From Caldicellulosiruptor danielii (GTDB lineage: Bacteria > Bacillota > Thermoanaerobacteria > Caldicellulosiruptorales > Caldicellulosiruptoraceae): a stretch of 64,000 bases of DNA. Location: the NCBI RefSeq assembly GCF_034343125.1, contig NZ_CP139957.1, positions 581,001 through 645,000 of the forward strand. Reading direction: 5' to 3'. This document shows, piece by piece, positions 23,651-23,713 of the stretch; the stretch's first letter is position 1, and each line of letters opens with the position of its first letter. Under the pieces are notes generated by a model, which saw nothing but the letters and a program-made list of their open reading frames with translations, had not been told where the DNA came from and searched no databases. The position numbers and the translations under genes were made by a program.

Positions 23651-23684
23651 AAAAAAAAAAAAAAAAAAAAAAAAAAAAAAAAAA
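23651..23684 (+). repeat. Homopolymer A34 tract
   Basis: Thirty-four consecutive A residues ending exactly one base before the -35 box of the chemotaxis operon promoter. Such a run is prone to slippage and, by position, could also act as an UP-element-like A-tract. Confidence 0.9.
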
Positions 23685-23713
23685 TGTACATAATCACAAC
23701 ATTGTGGTAAAAT
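23685..23713 (+). promoter_or_regulatory. Promoter of the chemotaxis operon
   Basis: TGTACA (23685-23690), a 17-nt spacer and extended TG-n-TAAAAT (-10 at 23708-23713). A second TATAAT overlaps at 23713-23718. The start point near 23720-23726 gives a 30-nt leader before ATG 23758. Confidence 0.6.

Follow-up and report, generated by a model that had tools for sequence, protein, structure and literature searches.

A conserved poly(A) tract of variable length at the predicted promoter of an accessory chemosensory module in Caldicellulosiruptor

Introduction

What is a pure run of 34 A's doing directly in front of a chemosensory operon in Caldicellulosiruptor danielii, and could its length influence how strongly that operon is transcribed? 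The run lies in the window analysed here, a 64,000-nucleotide stretch of DNA that spans bases 581001-645000 in a genome of 2.82 Mb assembled as a single contig. A preliminary description of this DNA proposed that the run slips during replication, that its length would change both the bend of the A-tract and its contact as an UP element with RNA polymerase, and that the operon could thereby be phase-variable at the level of promoter strength. To our knowledge, rheostats built on promoter tracts are best documented in host-adapted bacteria. We compared the locus across 12 species of the genus, with one genome per species (G000, C. danielii, to G011), and looked for similar tracts elsewhere.

Results

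The tract and the predicted core promoter

The homopolymer before the chemotaxis gene is real, with 34 A's counted, and is the single homopolymer longer than 8 in the window, the next longest being 8 (Table 1). At the window's A fraction of 0.342, about 1e-11 runs of this kind would be expected per window if bases were independent. The run is not a product of chance, and all seven orthologous operons carry one. The preliminary description had left one base between tract and TGTACA; none is present, the tract ending at 23684 and the hexamer starting at 23685. The 17-nt distance to an extended -10 was given correctly: the spacer between TGTACA and TAAAAT occupies 23691-23707, with the TG at 23705-23706 and TAAAAT at 23708-23713, and the second candidate TATAAT is a perfect match. 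That the tract adjoins a -35 box also holds among relatives, as far as these promoters are predicted: a -35-like hexamer stands 0 nt away here and 0-2 nt past the tract in six of the seven orthologues, followed after 17-18 nt by a TA-rich -10 (judged by eye in G011), both elements falling within 60 nt of the tract's end. A/T-rich DNA thus lies directly above the -35, as it does in a sigma-A UP element (about -38 to -60), where binding of the polymerase alpha-CTD is putative.

The promoter scan picks the TGTACA/TAAAAT pair, with 9 of 12 matches. Over 2 kb it returns 3 sites against 5.1 +/- 2.6 in shuffles, so the promoter call rests on the comparison between species and not on the scan; the best match in each che orthologue has a shuffle p of 0.037-0.217. 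A search for Rfam matches in 22700-24000 found none.

Table 1. Coordinates of the tract, the predicted promoter elements and the module genes in the window.
Feature	Position	Strand	Basis or remark
Pure A34 tract	23651..23684	+	Coding strand; occupies the UP-element position relative to the predicted core promoter; A23-A58 at the orthologous site of 6 other species
-35-like hexamer TGTACA	23685..23690	+	Abuts the A34 tract; GTTACA or a variant in most orthologues
Inverted repeat CACAA-CA-TTGTG in promoter spacer	23695..23706	.	Sequence comparison
Extended -10, TGG-TAAAAT	23705..23713	+	Sequence and promoter scan
Second -10 candidate TATAAT, overlapping TAAAAT	23713..23718	+	Sole -10 kept in G001
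Soluble MCP-type chemoreceptor, 650 aa, two MCPsignal stretches; first module gene	23758..25710	+	Pfam PF00015
CheW	25736..26290	+	Domain search
CheB	26324..27355	+	Domain search
CheA: dimer, kinase and CheW-like domains; Hpt domain not found	27389..29035	+	Domain search
HEAT-repeat protein	29064..30542	+	Domain search
CheR	30554..31399	+	Domain search
CheY-like receiver	31426..31797	+	Domain search
Hpt-CheW fusion	31815..32810	+	Domain search
Module remainder, three genes	32811..35986	+	ORFs; gene order conserved

An accessory chemosensory module

The genes behind the tract form a module found at this locus in 7 of the 12 genomes. In the other five, the flanking cyclase and phosphoribosyltransferase genes are adjacent, with the module absent between them. 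Among the carriers it follows the cyclase gene directly in six and some 8.5 kb further on in G011, and the phosphoribosyltransferase gene stands to its right in four of the six carriers other than C. danielii (the stretches compared in G002 and G011 ended short of it). The preliminary description spoke of "the che operon", which is too strong a label: with 2-4 PF02895 matches in each of the 12 genomes, none lacks a further CheA, and the module at 23758-35986 is therefore an accessory system. Its edges in C. danielii lie near 23420 and at about 36140. We considered the tract as a scar of a mobile element or of the insertion and ruled this out, since it sits about 230 nt inside the left edge.

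Within the three-gene remainder, a 331-aa protein has weak tblastn similarity to the first receptor of the module, and the other two we take, from reading their sequences, to be response-regulator-like and GGDEF-EAL-like. The chemotaxis kinase appears split, with a CheA in which no Hpt domain was detected and a separate Hpt-CheW protein; the fusion probably supplies the phosphotransfer part missing from the CheA. CheA3/CheA4 of R. sphaeroides is a comparable split kinase.

Tract length among orthologous loci

A pure A-run occupies the identical site and strand in all seven module carriers, and the corresponding stretch of the five genomes without the module (G003, G004, G005, G007, G008) has no A-run of at least 12. 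Counting the tract in related genomes had been proposed as a check, and its length differs among all seven species: 34 nt in C. danielii, 23 in G001, 58 in G002, 25 in G006, 55 in G009, 37 in G010 and 48 in G011. It is, as in a contingency locus, a length-variable simple repeat kept at orthologous loci. In the closest pair, G002 and G006, 98.9% of positions agree over the initial 700 nt of the MCP region and 94-97% in flanking sequence, and their tracts, 58 vs 25 nt, are 33 A's apart; 14 nt beside the tract are also missing in G002. Between species, tract length changes far faster than the flanks do.

Two carriers depart from the common layout. In G001, a 22-nt deletion between the -35 and the -10 has reduced the sequence to A23-GTTACA-TATAAT, with the operon intact, so that the core promoter as named for C. 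danielii is unusable there. G009 keeps an A55 and has an IS110-type insertion region in place of CheW to CheR; the tract thus persists without a working operon. An IS110-type transposase-like ORF lies inside this module (L169:7212-8540), its label resting on a very similar protein at L113.

The 200 nt above the tract share 40-68% identity in 17 of 21 pairs and are conserved only within G001/G002/G006 and within G009/G010, pairwise identities involving G001 being distorted by its 22-nt deletion. The inverted repeat in the spacer is conserved in four of the seven species, with 6-bp arms CCACAA/TTGTGG in three orthologues; it is deleted in G001 and degenerate in G010 and G011. We tried this palindrome as a regulon site and rejected it: the 12 genomes contain 8 copies, of which 4 belong to this operon, and the reversed control gives 22.

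The lengths themselves hold little further pattern. Helical phasing gave Rayleigh p values of 0.26, 0.074 and 0.037 at 10, 10.5 and 11 bp, a weak, post hoc signal that we set aside, and che tract length does not correlate with the number of long runs per genome (rho 0.36, p 0.43). G002 has longer tracts than G006, and G009 longer tracts than G010, at all three loci compared. A rank test in which the loci are phylogenetically non-independent, and in which the G007 cyclase was entered as 3 though it lacks a tract, ranks che tracts as longer than those of a diguanylate cyclase gene (p = 0.002) and of a second receptor gene (p = 0.010); these differences suggest locus-specific pressure on che tract length.

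Similar tracts at other genes

A census of A-runs of at least 15 in the 12 genomes returned 67 tracts, which group by flank similarity into clusters of 33, 7, 7, 4, 3, 2, 2, 2 and 2, plus five singletons. The clusters of 7 correspond to the che operon and to a gene for a GAF-GGDEF diguanylate cyclase. In the cluster of 33 there are 27 promoters of the type A(n)-N2-6-TTGACA-N17-18-TAAAAT and 6 members of another family (class e), a split that is our own, made from flanks and the promoter scan. All 27 have TTGACA 2-6 nt past the tract and then 17-18 nt to the -10. By ORF listing, 8 of the 27 loci share one N-terminal sequence, that of C39 peptide-export ABC transporters (one identified, TIGR01193), and other genes behind these promoters encode a radical-SAM/SPASM protein, an MFS transporter, a matrixin-like protein and an IS110 transposase; with such mixed downstream genes, "peptide-export type" is only a partial label. 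The exact pattern A(6-36)-CGRGN-TTGACAG-N17-18-TAAAAT, with at least 6 A's, finds 55 promoters in 10 of the 12 genomes and 0 in the reversed control; the length tally of these cassettes has 56 rows for the 55 sites, one G003 cassette being counted twice. Part of these cassettes precede peptide-export or radical-SAM genes, and similar ones within one genome differ in tract length. CRISPR leaders were considered as the identity of the A(n)-TTGACA copies and rejected, there being no spaced direct repeats downstream.

A second soluble chemoreceptor gene has A-runs of 9, 11, 14, 21 and 26 abutting GTTTACA at all five loci examined. In 11 of 12 genomes a run of A7-A30 stands about 50 nt ahead of the diguanylate cyclase gene (L213-L224); G007 has no tract there, and the promoter scan found no standard promoter downstream of the tract. 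Nine of the 67 census tracts overlap an ORF of at least 100 aa on either strand; five of the nine are che-operon or diguanylate cyclase promoters, and the ORFs overlapping those five are probably spurious. Across the class, A-runs of at least 25 occur in 24 of 37 genomes; among 44 listed, 14 fall in the genus, and 6 of these 14 are the che locus. Long A-runs are thus a habit of the class, and within the genus they occur most regularly at the che locus.

Discussion

How might the tract act?

The tract is a conserved, fast-changing promoter feature whose length differs between species; its position, its conservation, these between-species lengths and the same layout at other genes are directly established. 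In the mechanism we propose, it would serve as an UP-element-like portion upstream in the sigma-A promoter that drives the accessory chemosensory module. Poly(dA) above the -35 would offer a narrow minor groove to which the polymerase alpha-CTD could bind, making the tract itself the putative contact site. Replication slippage of such a long pure run, presumably also within populations, would let its length drift fast and come to differ between lineages, and each change in length might bring a graded change in output, strongest below about 20 nt and weak in longer tracts. That the tract is an UP-element-like part of this promoter, slips, and grades output by its length is a reading to which we give roughly even chances.

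The form that any such effect would take can be narrowed. The alpha-CTD contact region extends from about -38 to -60 and consists entirely of A's in any run of 23 or more, so strong on/off behaviour would not be expected; above about 20 nt, a graded effect or none is likelier than switching. The preliminary interpretation is partly supported, by the tract's place at a -35-like hexamer, by the fast length change between species and by similar runs at the -35 boxes of other signalling and secretion genes; phase variation in the strict sense would go beyond this. The accompanying idea that length alters an A-tract bend is doubtful, since an extended pure A-run is straight and rigid, not a set of phased bends. 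The tract lengths gave no clear helical phasing.

The main rival to graded control is a fixed UP element, in which A-rich DNA is needed upstream, any length above about 20 nt serves equally, and drift in length is neutral, without phase variation. We regard this as possible, if somewhat doubtful. It would account for the fact that every che tract is long enough, at 23 nt or more, to fill the alpha-CTD region, for the lack of clear helical phasing, and for tracts being generally longer in G002 than in G006 and in G009 than in G010 at the loci compared, which is what a genome-wide balance of slippage predicts. It fits poorly with the second-receptor and diguanylate cyclase tracts, which together span 7-30 nt, the range where output should change, and with a spread to 58 nt that exceeds what an UP element needs. 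A different geometry, which we think unlikely, has the transcript starting at or above the tract, so that the run falls in the initially transcribed region or 5' leader and acts on the mRNA through polymerase slippage or a poly(A) leader. No convincing -35 was seen by eye for such a start, the upstream flanks are poorly conserved, and the 27 TTGACA-type promoters have a full promoter downstream of the tract; yet a -10-like TATAAC or CATAAT stands just upstream of several tracts, ATAACAT-like words recur by eye upstream of the che, second-receptor and diguanylate cyclase tracts, G001 keeps its operon without the downstream core promoter, and the sole downstream -10 candidate of the diguanylate cyclase genes almost overlaps the ribosome site.

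The remaining explanations deny the tract a function or doubt its length. Slippage debris, meaning A-runs that expand in the AT-rich intergenic DNA of these thermophiles with no promoter role, would suit both the spread of long runs through the class and the A55 that G009 retains beside its broken operon. We consider it very improbable, because the che run keeps one site and strand in seven of seven carriers, the other promoter family keeps a fixed offset from TTGACA, and mutS was found in all 12 genomes, so that plain loss of mismatch repair, which we rejected as a cause, offers no explanation. An assembly or sequencing artefact is the least credible of all: most sequencing methods struggle to count 34-58 A's and the exact numbers may be off, but the run recurs at the same site in seven genomes, which puts only its exact length, hardly its existence, in doubt.

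Likeness to known systems

As in bacterial UP elements, A-rich DNA lies immediately above the -35; an ordinary UP element mixes A and T over about 20 bp, whereas the che tract is a pure homopolymer of variable length. A length-variable poly(A) run in a promoter also recalls vlp of Mycoplasma hyorhinis, where the tract lies between -35 and -10 and alters their spacing to switch expression on or off; the che tract stands upstream of the -35, with G001 a possible exception. Closer is Helicobacter pylori, in which, according to the accessible part of one report, A- or T-tracts beside -35 boxes tune promoter output by their length, and in sabA output changes with a period of about 10 bp by phasing of upstream A-boxes (PMC4081817). 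The sabA promoter as presented there shares with the che locus a mononucleotide A/T tract at the -35 whose length varies between genomes, and a proposed effect on alpha-CTD contact; it differs in that T5-T28 at sabA phases upstream A-boxes, while the che tract runs from A23 to A58 beneath an upstream flank that is not conserved (PMC4081817). Upstream A-boxes of the sabA type, at about -50 to -90 and phased by the tract, are not kept at the che locus, where the tract at 23-58 nt itself fills much of that region. With the upstream flank unconserved beyond close relatives and the tract longer, the exact phasing mechanism of sabA is not indicated. The host, too, differs from H. pylori, being a free-living thermophile. 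By analogy with sabA, it is nevertheless plausible that tract length sets promoter strength. Listeria inlA, in the accessible part of its report, shares the hypermutable poly(A), there a homopolymeric tract in a coding region; coding-region tracts shift the reading frame, unlike the intergenic che tract (PMC2831843). Our literature search found no publication that deals with either poly(A) tracts or phase variation in Caldicellulosiruptor; the accessible part of PMC7071700, on strain variants, mentions neither chemotaxis nor intergenic changes, and that of PMC2824730 concerns poly(A)/poly(G) tracts in mycoplasma.

If graded control by tract length is true, slippage-based tuning would extend to free-living thermophiles and would not be just an answer to host immunity. 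The layout is conserved before signalling and secretion genes, at up to twice the sabA length, and the che orthologues offer a natural length series, from 23 to 58, for testing how the alpha-CTD reads a homopolymer at high temperature. More tentatively, the sequence comparisons could point to a group of promoters across the genus that are tuned by poly(A), each with a slippery A-run at or close to its -35 box. It would take in the che module, the second chemoreceptor, the diguanylate cyclase and dozens of strong promoters, some of which precede peptide-export genes, an extension we think rather unlikely; if it held, one type of mutation would diversify taxis, c-di-GMP and the output of secreted peptides within clones of a free-living thermophile.

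Other long runs deserve mention. Class e includes an A68 in G008 (L142:2187-2254) that may sit between a -35 and a -10; on the T-strand side a -10-like GATATAAT directly follows the run, and the gene family behind it had no Pfam match in the two relatives checked (L096, L147). In G016, homopolymers of A, T and C alternate within one block (L193:2151-2370), perhaps an assembly artefact. Outgroup runs (L187-L212) reach A113, often in the form TTC-A(n)-TTCAGAAAA, and several of these stand about 40 nt above a promoter with what we take to be a LexA-box-like site.
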